Assembly: GCA_949741925.1 (NCBI GenBank)
Contig: CATJOY010000056.1
Span: 62,001-126,000, forward strand
Length of the DNA: 64,000 nucleotides
DNA from: an uncultured Desulfovibrionaceae bacterium
Lineage (GTDB): Bacteria; Desulfobacterota; Desulfovibrionia; Desulfovibrionales; Desulfovibrionaceae
Direction of reading: 5' to 3'
The position numbers and the translations under genes are program-made. Of the stretch, positions 22,722 through 31,546 are shown in pieces (position 1 is the stretch's first letter; each line of letters opens with the position of its first letter). The notes below the pieces were generated by a model, which was given only the letters and a program-made list of their open reading frames with translations, searched no databases and had not been told where the DNA came from.

Positions 22722-23196
22722 CCAGCCCCAAAAACTCCTCCATAAATACGCCTGGCGTATACCGCCGACAGAGAAAAATGCCTGGTATGGTTCCGCCATA
22801 GCAGGCATTTTCGTTATATCCCCACTACGCTATGGTAAGCCGCTTGCCGCAGGCAGCGCCAAGCAGAATTCGTGATCAAAAGTAAGCTGACCGGTTGACC
22901 ATGATTTTCCAACGGTGTATCAGGGAGTCTTCACTGGCGGCGTCTGTGAAAAAAACAACTCAAGGGTGGTGCGTCAATGCTGTTTGCGCGCAACTGATCA
23001 AAAGCAATCGGAACCCACGGTGTGCGGTTCTTATTGTGTGCATGGACGCGGAAAGAGTACGTGGCCTTTTGCCGCCCTTTTCCTGACGGTAGACCCAAAG
23101 GGGGGGGTTAGGCGTTCCTTCTCTTTCCCGCGTTCAGGCTGGAGCCATCAGAGTATGGTGTATCCGCTGCAACTTTTTGGGAAGGAGATGGAAAGC
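22722..23196. other. Leader region of the yedE operon
   Basis: Between the terminator at 22811 and the yedE start lie about 385 bases with no convincing gene. The yedE frame is open upstream from 22915 but the peptide is unlike the family. A run of eight G at 23098-23107 and a CTTTTTGGGAAGGAG ribosome-site region just before yedE are the only marked features. No known riboswitch was recognised. The operon promoter must lie here. Confidence 0.5.
22775..22811 (+). terminator. Rho-independent terminator after the FlgN-like gene
   Basis: AAAATGCCTG pairs with CAGGCATTTT (22775-22784, 22802-22811), and within it TATGG pairs with CCATA around a TTCCG loop. With 15 base pairs and a terminal T4, this is a strong terminator closing the sigma-54 operon. 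A smaller palindrome ATACGCCTGGCGTAT precedes it at 22746-22760. Confidence 0.8.
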
Positions 23197-24282
23197 ATGA
23201 AAAAAAATCTTTTGGCGACAACGCCGGGCATCATCGTTGTGGGGGCTGCTATCGGCCTCATTGCTGTATGGCTGCAAAAGCTCGGCAACCCGGCGAACAT
23301 GGGGATTTGCGTAGCCTGTTTTGAACGGGATATGGCCGGTGGGCTGGGCCTGCACCGCGCGGCTATTGTTCAGTATCTTCGTCCGGAAATCATGGGGCTG
23401 GTTCTCGGTTCGCTCTTCGCCGCCCTGGTCACGCGAGAATTTAAACCACGGGGCGGTTCTGCGCCTCTTGTCCGTTTTGTCCTCGGCATGATTGCCGCGA
23501 TGGGGGCTCTGGTGTTTCTGGGCTGTCCGTGGCGTGCAATCCTGCGCCTGGCCGGCGGAGATGGAAACGCCATACTCGGCATCGCGGGTTTGGCAACGGG
23601 CATCTGGGTTGGAACGCTCTTTTTCAAAAAAGGTTATTCCCTCGGCCGCAGCAACAGCCAGAGCGTTGTCTCCGGCGCTCTGTTTCCTGCCATCATTATT
23701 TGCCTGCTCCTGCTATACCTTCTCTTCCCCCAAATCCCGGGAGAACCGAAAAGCGGCCCTCTGTTTTATTCCCTAACAGGCCCCGGCTCGCAACACGCGC
23801 CGTTCATCGCCTCCTTGGGGTTAGCCTTTATCATCGGCATCATCGCCCAACGTAGCCGGTTCTGCACAATGGGAGCGTTTCGCGATCTCTTCCTGTTCCG
23901 CTATGCGCACTTATTCCTCGGTCTGGCGGCAATGTTTGCCGCTGCATCTATCGCCAATATCGCCCTGGGCGACTTCAAAATTGGCTTTGAAGGCCAGCCC
24001 GTGGCACACAGCAACTTTCTTTGGAATTACCTCGGTATGGTTACCGCCGGGCTTGCCTTTGCTTTGGCCGGCGGCTGCCCTGGCCGCCAACTGTTCATGG
24101 CTGGAGAAGGCGACAGCGACGCGGGCATCTTTGCCCTTGGCCTGCTCGTCGGCGCGGCCATGGCCCATAACCTGGGCACAGCCAGCTCAGGGGCGGGTAT
24201 CGGCGCCTACGGCATCCAGGCTACAGTCATTGGTTTCCTTGTCTGCCTGCTCATCGGCTTTGTTCATTCAAAAAAAGCGTAA
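23197..24282 (+). CDS. yedE: YedE-family (YeeE/YedE) putative selenium or thiosulfate transporter
   Basis: Predicted inner-membrane transporter of 361 residues and about ten helices, family of YedE (proposed selenium transporter) and of the thiosulfate importer YeeE/TsuA. The conserved cysteines are all visible: GICVACFERD (C38, C41), LGCPWR (C110), SRFCTMGAFRD (C223) and GGCPGRQL (C294); in TsuA such cysteines line the path of the sulfur substrate. ATG 23197 has AAGGAG nine bases upstream; ATG 23188 abuts the same site and is less likely. It heads an operon with a TusA-like carrier (12-base gap), a DUF3343 protein and a kinase-fold protein, which favours selenium or reduced-sulfur handling. 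Confidence 0.88.
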   Translation: MKKNLLATTPGIIVVGAAIGLIAVWLQKLGNPANMGICVACFERDMAGGLGLHRAAIVQYLRPEIMGLVLGSLFAALVTREFKPRGGSAPLVRFVLGMIAAMGALVFLGCPWRAILRLAGGDGNAILGIAGLATGIWVGTLFFKKGYSLGRSNSQSVVSGALFPAIIICLLLLYLLFPQIPGEPKSGPLFYSLTGPGSQHAPFIASLGLAFIIGIIAQRSRFCTMGAFRDLFLFRYAHLFLGLAAMFAAASIANIALGDFKIGFEGQPVAHSNFLWNYLGMVTAGLAFALAGGCPGRQLFMAGEGDSDAGIFALGLLVGAAMAHNLGTASSGAGIGAYGIQATVIGFLVCLLIGFVHSKKA

Positions 24283-24294
24283 GGGAGTATAGCC

Positions 24295-24507
24295 ATGCAC
24301 ACCATTGATACCCGGGGACTTTCCTGCCCCCAACCGCTGGTTCTCCTGCACCAGGCCATTGCAGAAAATACCTCCGACCCCATGGATGTGCTGGTGGATA
24401 ACCAGGCCAGCCTGGAAAACGTTACCCGTGCCGCAGAGAAAAAAGGCTGGAACGTTGCCGTTAGGGATGAAGGCGAAGGCGTTTTCCGACTGGAACTGCG
24501 CCGGTGA
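24295..24507 (+). CDS. TusA/YedF-like sulfur or selenium carrier
   Basis: A 70-residue cytosolic protein of the TusA (SirA) family. The signature DTRGLSCPQPLVLLHQAI (about residues 4-21) includes the acceptor cysteine C10 in CPxP, and the rest forms the beta-alpha-beta core (MDVLVDNQASLENVTRAA). GGGAG is about eight bases before the ATG. It sits directly after yedE and its stop overlaps the GTG of the next gene by four bases. It probably takes sulfur or selenium as a persulfide or perselenide from the transporter side and delivers it onward; E. coli YedF has the same layout. Confidence 0.9.
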   Translation: MHTIDTRGLSCPQPLVLLHQAIAENTSDPMDVLVDNQASLENVTRAAEKKGWNVAVRDEGEGVFRLELRR

Positions 24508-25082
24508 AAGCTTTCTTTTCCCGATTGGCCGGATTGACCCGGGGAAAGCCTCGCCCCAAGGTTGCCCCCGGGGCTTCCGCCGCACCTGCCGGGCAGGGTT
24601 TCCTGGTCTTTCAACAGACGGGCGAAGTCATTCGGGCAGAACTCGTGCTCCGGGAAGCGGAGTTCAGGGTCAAAGTCATGGGGCCTCCCCCGGCGCTGCG
24701 CACGGGGTGCGACATGGTCGTTGTTTTTGACTTGATGCAGGAGCCGCGTATCCACAGAACGCTGGAAGCGCACGGGCTCGAGCCGCTCAGGATCGTCCCC
24801 GTGCGCGACGCCCTCCTTGACCCTGTGTCGCTGTTTCAAGTCCGCGACTACGGCGCATGGTTTATGGTGCGGGCCGCCAACATGAAAATTACCGTGGAAC
24901 GCGCATCCGGAAAAATCGTCAATATTTCCGGGGGCGGATGCCCCGATGTGCCCTATCTTGCGGCGCTTTTGACCGGGCAAGGCATCGGGGAGGCAGAGGA
25001 GCCGCGCCTCAAGGGGCAGACGCTGTGTTCCTATTCGCTGCAACGAGCCTTTGAGGAAGCGAGGCGGCTATGGCGTGGATAA
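24504..25082 (+). CDS. DUF3343 protein with an additional C-terminal cysteine domain
   Basis: 192-residue soluble protein, GTG start overlapping the tusA-like stop (GTGA). After a basic N-terminus (1-30), residues about 32-102 fit DUF3343, a putative Se/S carrier domain: FLVFQQTGEVIRAELVLREA then VKVMGPPPALRTGCD (C69). Stand-alone DUF3343 proteins are only about 80 residues; here about 90 more follow, with a tight turn SGGGCPDVPYLAALL (C146) and TLCSY (C175). I do not recognise this second domain. Its 3' end overlaps the next gene by 13 bases. Context suggests the last carrier or an acceptor enzyme in a selenium/sulfur relay. Confidence 0.75.
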   Translation: MKAFFSRLAGLTRGKPRPKVAPGASAAPAGQGFLVFQQTGEVIRAELVLREAEFRVKVMGPPPALRTGCDMVVVFDLMQEPRIHRTLEAHGLEPLRIVPVRDALLDPVSLFQVRDYGAWFMVRAANMKITVERASGKIVNISGGGCPDVPYLAALLTGQGIGEAEEPRLKGQTLCSYSLQRAFEEARRLWRG

Positions 25083-25960
25083 TTTGCGGCACCGTGCCGG
25101 ATGCGTCATTTCCTCTTATCGAAGGATATTGGCGGTTAGACAAGGGGCAACTGCATGCACACGGCGGAAGCATTCCTCCGCTTGCAGTGCAACGAGGAAC
25201 GCCGGCTTTGCTGGCAACCGCTCTGTTAGCCTGTGAAACACTCGGCGCGGAGCCCCCCACCGCCCTGCTCGTCGGCGATACCGGCAGAGGAGAAGGAAGC
25301 CGCGCGCTCTATACGCATCTTGCGGCCTCCCTCGGAGCTTCTTCCCCGGGAGGCCTGACCTTTCACTACCTGTTCCCTGATTTAGACGGCCATAACCGCG
25401 TGCTCGCGTCTCTGGAAGAGATGCTCCCGCGCCCCTTGCTTGTTGCGGATGCCGGGTTCATGTACGCCGCTAAAATGAGCGGCTATGCCGCAACCTATGA
25501 TCTTTTTACGCCTGATGCCGGAGAACTGGCCTTCCTCGCCGATGAAAAAGCGCCCCATCCCTTTTATACCAGAGGCTTTTTACTCGCTATCGAGGAGGAT
25601 ATTCCCGACCTCGTGCAGCGGGCATACCGGCACGGAAATGCCGCTCGCTTCCTGCTTATCAAGGGGAAATGCGATTGCCTGGCCTATGACGGCCGTATCA
25701 TAGGCACAGTATCCGCGCCGCAGGTACCGGCAATGGAGCCCATTGGGGGCACAGGAGATCTTGTCACCGGCCTGGTTACCGGCCTGCTCGCCTCCGGTAT
25801 GGCGATGGAGCGCGCCTGTCTGACCGCGGCACGGGCTGCTCGACGCATCGGACTGCTGGCGAACCCGACGCCTGCCACCCAAGTGGCGGAACTGTTGCCC
25901 TTTCTCCCCCAAGCTTTGCGCCAGGGCGTGTCAGAGGCCTTTGACTGCGTCGTATCCTGA
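25070..25960 (+). CDS. Ribokinase-fold / NAD(P)HX-dehydratase-like protein
   Basis: A 296-residue soluble protein with the hallmarks of the ribokinase-like PF01256 group: LFTPDAGELAFLA (about 145-157, the TPHxGE region), FLLIKGKCDCLAYDG (about 194-208, the LKG strand) and IGGTGDLVTGLVTGLL (about 225-240, the GTGD anion hole with catalytic Asp230). The N-terminal half (CGTVPDASFPLIEGYW, then LLVGDTGRGEGSRALY) is unlike NnrD and may set substrate choice. It overlaps the DUF3343 gene by 13 bases, so it belongs to the same operon. An ATP-dependent step on a small molecule is inferred; a true NAD(P)HX repair role seems less likely because no NnrE epimerase partner is fused or adjacent. Confidence 0.72.
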   Translation: MAWIICGTVPDASFPLIEGYWRLDKGQLHAHGGSIPPLAVQRGTPALLATALLACETLGAEPPTALLVGDTGRGEGSRALYTHLAASLGASSPGGLTFHYLFPDLDGHNRVLASLEEMLPRPLLVADAGFMYAAKMSGYAATYDLFTPDAGELAFLADEKAPHPFYTRGFLLAIEEDIPDLVQRAYRHGNAARFLLIKGKCDCLAYDGRIIGTVSAPQVPAMEPIGGTGDLVTGLVTGLLASGMAMERACLTAARAARRIGLLANPTPATQVAELLPFLPQALRQGVSEAFDCVVS

Positions 25961-26628: not shown

Positions 26629-28083
26629 TTACATAAAGAAGACAAAGGTAGTCAAAAGCAAGGTGGGCACCAATATGCCCACGGACCAAAGCATATACCC
26701 GAAGAAACTGGGCATGGCCACACCCTGGTTTTCGGCAATGGAGCGGACCATGAAGTTAGGCGCGTTGCCGATATAGGTATTGGCCCCCATAAAGACCGCC
26801 CCCGCAGAGATTGCCGTCAAAGTCGAGGCAAAGGTTGTGGTCAAGGTAGCGGCATCCCCGCCGGCCGTGTTGAAGAAAACAAGATATGTCGGCGCGTTAT
26901 CCAGGAAGCTGGAAAGAAGGCCGGTAATCCAGAAATAGGCGGCGTCGATGGGCTGGCCGTCAGCTCCGGTAACTGTGCTGATAACACCGGCTAGGGCGCC
27001 GTCTTTGCCGGCGCGCAAGATGGCAATGGCAGGGAGCATGCTGATAAAGATGCCGAAGAACAGCTTGGCGACTTCAAGAATCGGCTCCCAGTTGAAATCG
27101 TTGGCCTCTCGGGCTTCCTTGGGCGTAAAGCGCAGAGAAAGATACGCGATGACTAAAAGCAAAACATCCCGGAAGAGCTTAGGCAGCCCCACATGGACAT
27201 GGTAGACGGCAAAGCCGACCTCGCTCTGCCACATGCCGCTGATCAGCACAGCCGCCACAATACCCGCCAGGAAAAGGAAGTTAATCGTGCCTTCGAGACG
27301 CAGCTTTTCGTTGCTTGCGGCGGAACCGGGAGGCACGGGCCGCCCTTCCTTGGCGTAAAGGTAGCTATCAAGAAAGAAATAAATACCCAGCAAAATTACG
27401 GACACAAAGAACATAGGCAGGAACAGGTGGGTCAGCGTCCAGAAGAAATCAACCCCCTTGAGAAAGCCCAAGAACAAAGGCGGATCGCCCAGAGGCGTCA
27501 ACGAACCGCCTACGTTGGCCACCAAGAAGATAAAGAAAACCACGGTGTGTACCCGATACTTGCGGTGCGCGTTGGCCCGGAGAATGGGCCGAATAAGCAG
27601 CATGGCCGCGCCCGTGGTGCCCATCCAACTGGCAATGGCCGTGCCGATGAGCAAAATGACCAGATTGACCTTTGGCGTTCCAACAAGTCTGCCCTTGAGG
27701 CAAATGCCGCCGGCCACGGTGAACAGGGCAAAAAGCAGGATAATGAACGGCAAATATTCCTCAATAATGGCATGCAAAAACTGGTAAAGCGTAACGCTGC
27801 CGCCAAAGGCAATGAAACAGGGGATCAAAAAGGCCAAGCCCCAGCCCAAGGCGATTTTGCCGAAATGATGGTGCCAAATATGGGGTACAGTCAGCGGTAG
27901 AATGGCAATGGAAAGGAGCAGACAGGCAAAGGGGATCACCCAGGGAAGGGAAAGATCTTTGCCCGGGAGGGCGAAGCCTTCAGCGGCGGCCAGGGCGGCA
28001 GAAGGATCAAACAACAAAAAGCCTGATAGAGCCAGGAGGAATACTCCAAGGGTTACAATCCGAATACTGCGCCAACCTGCCAT
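26629..28083 (-). CDS. CitMHS/NhaD-like ion transporter
   Basis: Inner-membrane transporter of the ion-transporter superfamily, 484 residues and about twelve helices, resembling the putative sodium:proton antiporter/citrate-transport group. Conserved segments include LIGTAIASWMGTTGAAMLL (about 144-162), FLVANVGGSLTPLGDPP (about 184-200) and LSSFLDNAPTYLVFFN (about 384-399), with DNAPT and GDPP being the familiar helix-breaking motifs. The N-terminus is a hydrophobic helix ending in AALAAAEG, which could be a cleavable signal. ATG 28083 has CAAGGAGG about eight bases upstream. It stands alone on the minus strand. Whether it moves Na+/H+ or a carboxylate cannot be told by eye. Confidence 0.83.
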   Translation of the reverse strand: MAGWRSIRIVTLGVFLLALSGFLLFDPSAALAAAEGFALPGKDLSLPWVIPFACLLLSIAILPLTVPHIWHHHFGKIALGWGLAFLIPCFIAFGGSVTLYQFLHAIIEEYLPFIILLFALFTVAGGICLKGRLVGTPKVNLVILLIGTAIASWMGTTGAAMLLIRPILRANAHRKYRVHTVVFFIFLVANVGGSLTPLGDPPLFLGFLKGVDFFWTLTHLFLPMFFVSVILLGIYFFLDSYLYAKEGRPVPPGSAASNEKLRLEGTINFLFLAGIVAAVLISGMWQSEVGFAVYHVHVGLPKLFRDVLLLVIAYLSLRFTPKEAREANDFNWEPILEVAKLFFGIFISMLPAIAILRAGKDGALAGVISTVTGADGQPIDAAYFWITGLLSSFLDNAPTYLVFFNTAGGDAATLTTTFASTLTAISAGAVFMGANTYIGNAPNFMVRSIAENQGVAMPSFFGYMLWSVGILVPTLLLTTFVFFM

Positions 28084-28263: not shown

Positions 28264-28854
28264 ATGACCCGACCCCGAACAGCCGAACGCGAAGCCAAAA
28301 TCCGTAAGGTATTGGCCTATCGCCAAAACGATCTTGCCCTAGTGCTGGCGAATATCCACGATCCCCATAACGTTTCGGCCATCTACCGCAGTTGTGATGC
28401 CTTTGGCGTGCCCTTGGTGCATCTCTATTATACCCGAACCGCCTTTCCCCATCTGGGAGAAAAAAGTTCCGCTTCGGCCCGTAAGTGGGTTGCCTCAAAA
28501 CGCCACGCGGATGCCGCAAGCCTGAAGGCCGACTTGGAAGCGGCAGGCATGCAGATCTATGCAACAAGCTGTTCCCCAAAGGCCAAACCTCTGGGAGCAA
28601 TAGATTTTACCCTCCCTACCGCCGTCATTATGGGCAACGAGCACAGCGGGGTTGACCCGGAGCTTCTTCCCTTGGCCCATGGCGAGGTATATATTCCCAT
28701 GTACGGCATGATTCAAAGTTTCAATGTTTCCGTTGCCGCCGCCTTGATTCTCGGAGAAGCTTCCCGGCAGCGGGCCGAGGCCGGTCTGTACGATGCGCCG
28801 CGGTACGCCCCGGAGGAACTTGAGGCCCTAATCAACGAGTGGCTGGCCCGATGA
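28264..28854 (+). CDS. trmH: TrmH-family RNA 2'-O-methyltransferase
   Basis: SPOUT-class methyltransferase, probably tRNA Gm18 2'-O-methyltransferase, 196 residues. The three motifs are present: LANIHDPHNVSAIYRSCDAFG (motif 1, about 26-46, catalytic Arg in YRS), AVIMGNEHSGVDPELL (motif 2, about 119-134) and MIQSFNVSVAAALIL (motif 3, about 148-162). ATG 28264 is preceded by GGAAGAAG. The stop overlaps the YcaO gene start by four bases (ATGA), making it the first gene of the operon that continues to the ABC transporter. TrmH versus a ribosomal-RNA target is not certain. Confidence 0.86.
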   Translation: MTRPRTAEREAKIRKVLAYRQNDLALVLANIHDPHNVSAIYRSCDAFGVPLVHLYYTRTAFPHLGEKSSASARKWVASKRHADAASLKADLEAAGMQIYATSCSPKAKPLGAIDFTLPTAVIMGNEHSGVDPELLPLAHGEVYIPMYGMIQSFNVSVAAALILGEASRQRAEAGLYDAPRYAPEELEALINEWLAR

Positions 28855-30629
28855 AACTTTTCTCCTGTCCCAAAAACCCCGATTCATCCCTTGATAAATC
28901 CCTTTCCCCGGCCGCTACCGTCGAGCGGGTTCTGGCCCGTATGGAAGAACTCGGCGGCAAAGGCATCAGGCTGCTTGGGGCGTTGCGCCGGGTGGATACG
29001 GGGCGACTCGGCATCCCTGTGTTCATGAGCCTTTACGGGCCGGAAGCCCTGGCTCTGGTTCCCACTCGCAAGCAGATGGGCAAAGGAAGCACCCCGGACC
29101 AGGCCCGGGCTTCCGCCCTGATGGAACTGATGGAGCGCTTCGCCTTTTTCTCCTATTGGCAGCAAGAGCCCGCGGCCTACTGCACCTGGTCTGAAGCCCG
29201 GCAACGTTTCGGCTCTTCCCTGCTCCCTCTTACGGAGATTATCGCCTCGGTACACGACCCTCTCCCCCCTGATGCCGCCCGGCAGGCCCTGGATCTTTGG
29301 CGGTGGGAGTTCAGACCGGCTTGGCGTATCGCTGACGCAGAACAGCCCGAAAAAATTTACGCGCCCCTTTCCTGGTTTCGCCTCCTCAATGAATTCAACG
29401 GCGCATCGGCTGGAAACACCCCTGAAGAATCCTTGCTCCAAGGGACCATGGAGCTGATAGAACGCCATGTCTGTTGCCGCCTGGATCGTGAGCGCCCCCG
29501 GGTTCCGGCCATCGATGCCAACCCGCCCCGGTTGCGCCTCCTGGACCCTGTGCTGGCCGACATGGTTTCACGCTTTGCGGAACACGGTATTCGCCTACTG
29601 CTGTATGATATTTCCCTCGGCCTCCCTGTGCCCACAGTGGCCGCCCTGGCCTGGGACCCGGCCAGCTTTCCCGAGCGCTCGGAAATCGTCTTTACCGCCG
29701 GCAGCGCAACCTCCCCGGAAAAGGCCGCTCTGCGCGCTGTAACCGAAGTAGCCCAACTCGGCGGCGATTTCATCACCGCATCCTGCTATGAAGCATCCGG
29801 CCTACCCAAATTCGCTTCCTTGGAAGAAATCCGCTGGCTGACCGAAAGCGGCGGTTCCGGCCTGAATCGGGGCCTTGAAACACTCCCCCGTCTGGAGCAT
29901 GCCGATATTCGCGAGGAACTCTTCCGGGTCAGCCGCGGGTTGAACGAGAGGGGAGTTTACCTCTACGCGGCAGATACAACCACCCCCCTGACAGGCATTC
30001 CCAGCCATTATTGTTTCGCTCCCGGGTTGGAATTCCGCGAACGGGAAGCCAACGCCTCCCTGGGGCTCTTTATTGGCCGCCAGATCGCGGAACAAGAAGA
30101 AGACGGCCAGGCGGCCCTTGAAAAAATCCGCCGCCTGGATGAACTGTACGGCGGCGGACAGCACTGGGCGCCGTTCTTTCAGGGGCTGGCCCTGCTGCGC
30201 ATGGGAGAAACCGCGGCGGCGGAAGAGCGTTTCCACCGGGCAATCCCGTTGCAGCCGGATGCCCCTGCCAGGGCCTTGGCCGTTTTTTACCTGGCCTATG
30301 CCGCCTCGCTGCGCGAGGACTGGCAGCGGACGGCAGAAACACTTGATGAAGCGATTCGCCTTGATCCCGGAGTCAAGGAATACCGCAATCTACGCGGCGC
30401 GGCGTATTTCAGAATGGAACGCTTTGCCCCGGCCGCGGAGGATTTTTCCTATATCATCAAATACCTGGACAAAGGTTCGGCCGTAGATCTTGCCAACCTC
30501 GGCTTCTGCCACGCCCGCCTCGGCAATGAGGGACAGGCCCGCGAGTACCTGGAAGCCCTGCTGGAAATAGATCCGGACCACCAGAAAGCCCGGGAATGGC
30601 TTGCGCGCCACGCCCTCGGGCAGCACTGA
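28851..30629 (+). CDS. YcaO-domain protein with C-terminal TPR repeats
   Basis: 592-residue cytosolic protein. The first two thirds are a YcaO domain, an ATP-binding fold that activates amide carbonyls; visible family segments are [17 protein letters not shown] (about 84-100), [17 protein letters not shown] (about 187-203) and [16 protein letters not shown] (about 289-304). From about 420 onwards there are tetratricopeptide repeats ([31 protein letters not shown] and others). E. coli YcaO also has a TPR-like tail and is linked to RimO-dependent methylthiolation of ribosomal protein S12. No precursor peptide, dehydrogenase or TfuA partner is adjacent, so a RiPP or thioamide role is not supported. 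ATG overlaps the TrmH stop; cysD starts 11 bases after. Confidence 0.84.
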
Positions 30630-30640
30630 AAGGAAAAAGC

Positions 30641-31546
30641 ATGGCGCTGCACCCCTATCTTAAGGCTCTGGAAGCCGAAAGCATCCATATTTTCCGAGAA
30701 CTGGCGGCGGGCTTTGCCAAGCCGGTCATGCTCTATTCCATCGGCAAGGATTCTTCGGTACTGCTGCACCTGGCCCGCAAAGCCTTTTACCCGGCCAAAC
30801 TCCCTTTTCCGGTTCTGCATGTGGACACGACCTGGAAATTCAAGGATATGATTGCCTTCCGGGATCGCAAAGCCCGGGAATTGGGGCTCAATCTCCTCGT
30901 CTATACCAATCCCGCCGGCGCAGAGCGGCAGATCACGCCCTTCACCTACGGTTCTGCCCGCTATACGGATATTATGAAAACCGAGGCCTTGCGTCAGGCG
31001 CTGGATATGTACGGCTTTGATGCGGCTATAGGCGGCGCGCGCCGGGATGAGGAAAAATCCCGGGCCAAGGAGAGAATTTTTTCCGTGCGCAGCCCCGGCT
31101 ATCGCTGGGATGCCCGAAAACAACGTCCTGAAATGTGGCGGCTTTTCAACACCCGGTTGGGGCACGGTGAAACCATGCGTGTTTTTCCCCTCTCCAACTG
31201 GACCGAAATGGATGTTTGGGAATACATCCTGGCTGAAAACCTAGAGGTGGTGCCGCTGTATTTCGCCAAGGAGCGGCCTGTAGTCGAACGTCAGGGCAAC
31301 TTGATCGTAATCGATGATCCGGAAAAAATGGTCTTTGAGCCCGGCGAAACCCCTGTCATGCGCCAGGTCCGCTTCCGAACCCTTGGCTGTTGGCCCCTTT
31401 CGGGAGCCATTGAGTCCACGGCGCAAAGCATCGCGGATATTGTGGAAGAACTGCGGCTTTCCCGTTTTTCCGAGCGTCAGGGAAGGCTGATCGATTCCGA
31501 CCAGGCGGGGTCCATGGAAAAGAAAAAACAAGAAGGCTACTTCTGA
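30641..31546 (+). CDS. cysD: Sulfate adenylyltransferase small subunit
   Basis: Catalytic subunit of the CysDN ATP sulfurylase that forms APS from sulfate and ATP. The 301-residue protein has the PP-loop [13 protein letters not shown] (S33-G35-K36-D37-S38), [14 protein letters not shown] near 65-78, [20 protein letters not shown] (about 129-148) and [15 protein letters not shown] lies eight bases before ATG 30641. The stop overlaps the cysNC start by one base (TGATG). Dissimilatory sulfate reducers use a different enzyme (Sat), so this pair indicates assimilatory or PAPS-forming use of sulfate. Confidence 0.94.

Follow-up and report, generated by a model that had tools for sequence, protein, structure and literature searches.

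A YedE operon with a ribokinase-fold partner and a UGA-containing leader: a probable selenium uptake and hand-over module in a Desulfovibrionaceae bacterium

A four-gene operon of an uncultured Desulfovibrionaceae bacterium probably encodes a selenium uptake and hand-over module that feeds SelD and that, in the lineage studied here, is controlled by Sec-tRNA status. The operon lies within a window of 64,000 nucleotides, the whole stretch of DNA that was analyzed, and comprises on the plus strand yedE (23197..24282), a tusA-like gene (24295..24507), a DUF3343 gene (24504..25082), and a gene for a ribokinase-fold protein (25070..25960). The four open reading frames and their spacings (a 12-nt gap, a 4-nt overlap, and a 13-nt overlap in gene order), as given in the first-pass annotation, were confirmed. 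The start of the unit was not: 23197, and not 22775, is the earliest coding start that has a ribosome-binding site. The four-gene arrangement is far beyond chance, being seen in nearly all of the ∼140 kinase-bearing loci examined.

YedE is a full member of the TIGR04112 family of putative selenium transporters, with a score of 459.6 bits against a curated cut-off of 200. TsuA models score the same protein at 26–37 bits, far under cut-off. Residues Cys-38, Cys-41, Cys-110, Cys-223, and Cys-294 are kept in every aligned relative. We predict that the protein transports a selenium species. In Methanococcus maripaludis the yedE transcript goes up under selenium depletion, and a yedE deletion gave no clear selenium-uptake defect (PMC11097638). 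At four loci (L153, L155, L156, and L158) the full YedE is replaced by two half-size Sulf_transp proteins beside DUF3343 and the kinase, with an altered gene order. The second operon protein is a lone TusA/SirA-like domain of 70 amino acids (PF01206, E = 4e-16) whose Cys-11 is found in 146/146 relatives. It had been annotated as YedF/TusA. The TusA domain stands, but full YedF does not: the TIGR03527 score of 53.5 bits lies under the cut-off of 110, the match is limited to model positions 1–67 of 194, and there is no DsrE part. True YedF with both domains is present in the clusters of relatives.

The third protein belongs to DUF3343, now named Se_S_carrier (PF11823, 52.1 bits against a cut-off of 25). 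The PF11823 match covers only residues 33–98 of 192, and the C-terminal domain of this two-domain protein is unclassified. Three cysteines, Cys-69, Cys-146 (within GGGCPDVP), and Cys-175 (within TLC), are invariant in all 158–159 aligned relatives. An AlphaFold2 model of the protein has a pLDDT of 86.7; a solved relative was sought by fold and by sequence, and none was found.

The fourth protein is, as judged from its sequence, a divergent relative of ThiM and NnrD. It scores narrowly over the cut-off for PF01256 (Carb_kinase), at 28.9 bits against 27, with an intact GGTGD motif. Its place in the ribokinase-like superfamily (Carb_kinase clan) is indicated by a Foldseek E value of ∼1e-7 to ribokinase-fold enzymes and by the invariance of GGTGD. 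The AlphaFold2 model, of good confidence (pLDDT 89.8), falls in the ribokinase superfamily with no clear subfamily (query TM 0.47–0.58), and the nearest solved sequence is the ThiM-type kinase 3dzv (E = 2e-7). An alignment of 20 sequences has 71 invariant columns. The catalytic motifs, with Glu-152 (TPDxGE), Lys-198 (KG), and Asp-230 (GGTGD), are invariant, and so are two family-specific stretches, FLADxxAPHPxYTRGF and TFHYxxPD. The kinase has no invariant cysteine and is therefore not a selenium carrier. A text search of the literature, with most subscription journals outside its coverage, did not find a ribokinase or YjeF-type enzyme together with YedE and selenium.

DUF3343 and the kinase form one cassette, as is evident from their co-occurrence, adjacency, 13-nt overlap, fusion, and joint-loss scars. 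Among 150 genomes of the order, both the kinase and the two-domain DUF3343 are present in 73 and neither in 75, the remaining two being a contig-edge case and a decayed remnant. Strong kinase matches were found in 74 of these genomes and YedE over cut-off in 79, with 73 common to both; the sole kinase without YedE is a broken gene, from a genome of 1.6 Mb. The two-domain DUF3343 profile is likewise found in 74 genomes, 73 of them shared with the kinase, and in the exception (G048) the DUF3343 gene lies 92 bases from the contig end, where the kinase would come next. A total of 352 relatives were found in GTDB. In all 80 of the loci inspected (Desulfobacterota and Nitrospirota) the kinase directly follows DUF3343, with yedE and tusA nearly always immediately upstream where there is enough flanking sequence. 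The commonest overlap of the two genes is exactly 13 nt (94 loci). In two lineages they are fused into one chain of 521–537 amino acids, the fusions being 57% identical to each other. Joint loss has left a scar between tusA and selD that retains the beginning of the DUF3343 gene and the tail of the kinase gene (L166, 1937–2140), and at another locus the cassette is lost and a DUF3343 stub remains between the same two genes (L170, 3170–3470). The fourth gene thus belongs to the operon, as first annotated, and most relatives do not carry it on its own or beside nnrE. Across the phylum sample YedE is present in 94/100 kinase-positive and 86/295 kinase-negative genomes. Directly 3′ of the kinase, at L109 (1654–1902) and ∼17 other loci, lies a gene for a DUF1858-like protein of 77–82 amino acids with a CICC motif. 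Confinement of the kinase to sulfidogens was considered and is weakly supported; it fails for the host genome (G000), which has no dsrA match, though family relatives have dsrA.

The neighborhood of the cassette ties it to selenium. At loci with 2.5 kb of downstream sequence, selD lies within 2 kb downstream on the same strand in 16/60 unselected cases, and a genome search found the same linkage in members of several families. Genes for YedF, SelB, HAD-like, and DUF1858-like proteins are near the cassette in some clusters. The host has selA, and its selD carries an in-frame UGA; selA is absent from 3/38 kinase-positive family representatives. SelD is present in 346/395 genomes of the phylum sample (88%), specifically in 95/100 kinase-positive and 251/295 kinase-negative genomes (p = 0.008), which is a weak test of whether the operon occurs equally in genomes without selenium use because SelD is near universal in the phylum. 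In genus g3, loss of the kinase is accompanied by loss of SelD: SelD is missing in 4/5 kinase-negative and 1/20 kinase-positive genomes (p = 0.002, the genomes being related and not independent). The selenium part of the originally proposed selenium or sulfur trafficking operon is therefore strengthened by adjacency to selD, yedF, and selB and by the UGA and SECIS-like leader described below, and import, relay, and activation with ATP stand as a proposal. At five loci (L110, L111, L116, L124, and L130) a small HAD-like hydrolase gene lies between the kinase and selD, mostly with yedF; such a kinase-phosphatase pair could point to a phosphorylated intermediate. Selenocysteine within the four operon proteins was sought in relatives and none was found, stop codons occurring only at the kinase C terminus or at YedE splits.

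The leader of yedE, which was absent from the first-pass annotation, is the strongest new lead. It contains a short open reading frame on the plus strand (22977..22997) composed of an ATG, five codons, and an in-frame UGA (MLFARN-U), and a Shine-Dalgarno-like AGGG precedes the ATG. A hairpin follows on the same strand (23010..23030, GGAACC-CAC-GGU-GUG-C-GGUUC) with a GGU triloop at 23019–23021. The leader has the geometry of a bacterial SECIS, in which a hairpin whose apical loop contains a conserved G(G)U closely follows an in-frame UGA. The GGU triloop is at +22 from the UGA, and the SECIS of the host selD has a GGC triloop at +21. We regard the SECIS-like hairpin as a candidate site for SelB binding and Sec insertion. 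The full leader pattern occurs once in the window, with 0.01 occurrences expected. The read-through frame stops at a TAG (23109–23111) 85 nt 5′ of yedE. Neither a σ70 promoter nor a convincing terminator was seen.

In the 13 leaders aligned across relatives the ATG and TGA are invariant, with an identical spacing of 15 nt. A scan of 129 leaders for the hairpin core gave 14 (type A) in which the ATG, 15 nt, the TGA, 17–19 nt, and the core follow in that layout; core-like matches without the ATG-TGA layout were only six, all degenerate. In four sequences a C-G pair of the stem has become U-A through a double change, and type A covariation is not above that of shuffles on most measures, partly through alignment register shifts. 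RNAalifold on a MAFFT alignment of the leaders returned no consensus structure because sub-clades pair in different registers, and a count of the named structure was used in its place. Taken singly, the window leader folds with an unremarkable minimum free energy (z = −0.25), and the case accordingly consists of conservation and geometry. A type B leader at several Desulfobacterales-type loci encodes MYQFFGFT-U and has a strong Shine-Dalgarno sequence, its own hairpin, and an outer stem. A third leader type is found in clusters without the kinase. The same layout in two or three unrelated leader types means that it recurs in unrelated sequences. The leader is not universal, with one clear case among 38 further yedE leaders, and an internal-control scan of 92 leaders comparing UGA with UAA/UAG was marginal (24/67 versus 4/28, p = 0.048). 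Type B UGA leaders were also seen before selB (L092, 686) and at a site that is not before yedE (L136, 14159).

The short open reading frame and its UGA might instead be incidental, the conserved RNA being a riboswitch or a protein-binding element. This reading, which concerns the leader alone and would fit the proposed function of the operon, is rather unlikely. A riboswitch-like outer stem encloses the UGA in both main leader types, and type A leaders show no conservation of the peptide. However, the in-frame stop of the 14 type A leaders is UGA in every case and never UAA or UAG (0/14), its spacing to the GGU/GGC loop is fixed, the geometry is that of a genuine selD SECIS with a Shine-Dalgarno sequence 5′ of the ATG, the layout is common to three unrelated sequence types, and neither the window nor the leader has a match to a known RNA in Rfam.

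Among alternatives for the operon itself, uptake of thiosulfate or sulfane sulfur of the YeeE-YeeD (TsuA-TsuB) type, with selenium associated by neighborhood only, is unlikely. YeeE requires a TusA-like, thiosulfate-decomposing YeeD (PMC11073785), half-size Sulf_transp pairs replace full YedE in some lineages, and dsrA is present in 25/39 kinase-positive versus 11/33 other families (p = 0.017, uncorrected for relatedness). Against this stand the TIGR04112 and TsuA scores of the window YedE, the selD, yedF, and selB neighbors, the UGA and SECIS-like leader, and the lack of a dsrA match in the host. Lin et al. raised YedE as a possible exporter (PMC5322559), but a module that rids the cell of excess selenium or tellurium by export or detoxification, with no role in supply, seems distinctly improbable, since the selD linkage, the ATP-using step, and the Sec-status leader suit supply better and the M. 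maripaludis yedE transcript rises on selenium depletion (PMC11097638). Least credible is that the fourth gene encodes the NAD(P)H-hydrate dehydratase NnrD, a metabolite repair enzyme carried as an operon passenger. The PF01256 match, a profile alignment to the NnrD of the host, and structural similarity to TM0922 all suit that identity; yet the protein reaches 22.3 bits with TIGR00196 against a cut-off of 129.85. A full canonical NnrDE encoded elsewhere in the host scores 177 bits, over cut-off, and makes the fourth gene dispensable as the NAD(P)HX repair enzyme of the cell. Obligate pairing and fusion with DUF3343 and the family-specific invariant motifs also argue against a passenger.

For the preferred selenium uptake and hand-over module, we infer the direction of transport and the order of the relay. 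YedE would move a selenium species across the membrane, and the TusA-like protein would be loaded with selenium on its single cysteine, as YeeD/TsuB is with thiosulfate. The two-domain DUF3343 protein would then relay selenium via its three invariant cysteines toward SelD, the enzyme that produces selenophosphate. The kinase would be complexed with DUF3343 and would use ATP during the hand-over; this ATP-using step is inferred from its motifs and pairing. The exact form of the step is a guess and a doubtful one, most likely either phosphorylation of a small acceptor or gating of release so that selenium and not sulfur reaches SelD. In the lineage of the window, Sec read-through versus stop at the seventh-codon UGA would report the supply of Sec-tRNA, with induction expected under selenium scarcity. 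Tentatively, the leader UGA may be a Sec codon serving as an attenuator set by Sec-tRNA supply while the kinase spends ATP to favor selenium over sulfur in the hand-over.

YedE, YedF, and DUF3343 were put forward as selenium genes from genome context by Lin et al. in 2015, with no kinase partner mentioned (PMC5322559). These three are thus already published as candidate selenium genes, and the UGA leader is new here. The operon shares with those clusters (TIGR04112, TIGR03527, PF11823) the transporter family, a TusA-like protein, DUF3343, and linkage to selD and yedF. It differs in its obligate ribokinase-fold partner, a TusA protein without DsrE, the UGA leader, and a second DUF3343 domain that adds two invariant cysteines. 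YeeE-YeeD (PMC11073785) similarly encodes a membrane protein of the same superfamily beside a TusA-like cysteine protein, but the operon's transporter is of another subfamily by score and has two more soluble partners and a selenium context. With NnrD, the ADP/ATP-dependent NAD(P)H-hydrate dehydratase, and the thiazole kinase ThiM, the operon kinase shares the ribokinase fold and the TPxxGE, KG, and GGTGD motifs. Unlike NnrD, it falls under the family cut-off, has Asp in place of the His of TPHxGE, and carries FLADxxAPHPxYTRGF and TFHYxxPD as unique stretches. In 2002, Thanbichler and Bock reportedly described a SECIS-like element in the leader of E. coli selAB. That element and ours are both SECIS-like hairpins in the 5′ leader of a selenium operon, but here the hairpin lies 12 nt after the in-frame UGA of a short open reading frame, 5′ of a transporter and carrier operon. 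A specific high-affinity selenium transport system has not been identified in prokaryotes according to a 2026 review (PMC13188914), and the operon offers a defined set of proteins for testing selenium transport. If the proposal is true, it would bring an enzyme family into selenium metabolism and provide a leader RNA whose Sec codon itself senses selenium.

Elsewhere in the window, a CitMHS_2 transporter gene on the minus strand (26629–28083) is convergent with the operon and apparently unrelated to it. Further downstream, an open reading frame that by eye is YcaO-like with C-terminal repeats (28839–30629) overlaps one that by eye encodes a CysD-like ATP sulfurylase subunit (30596–31546).
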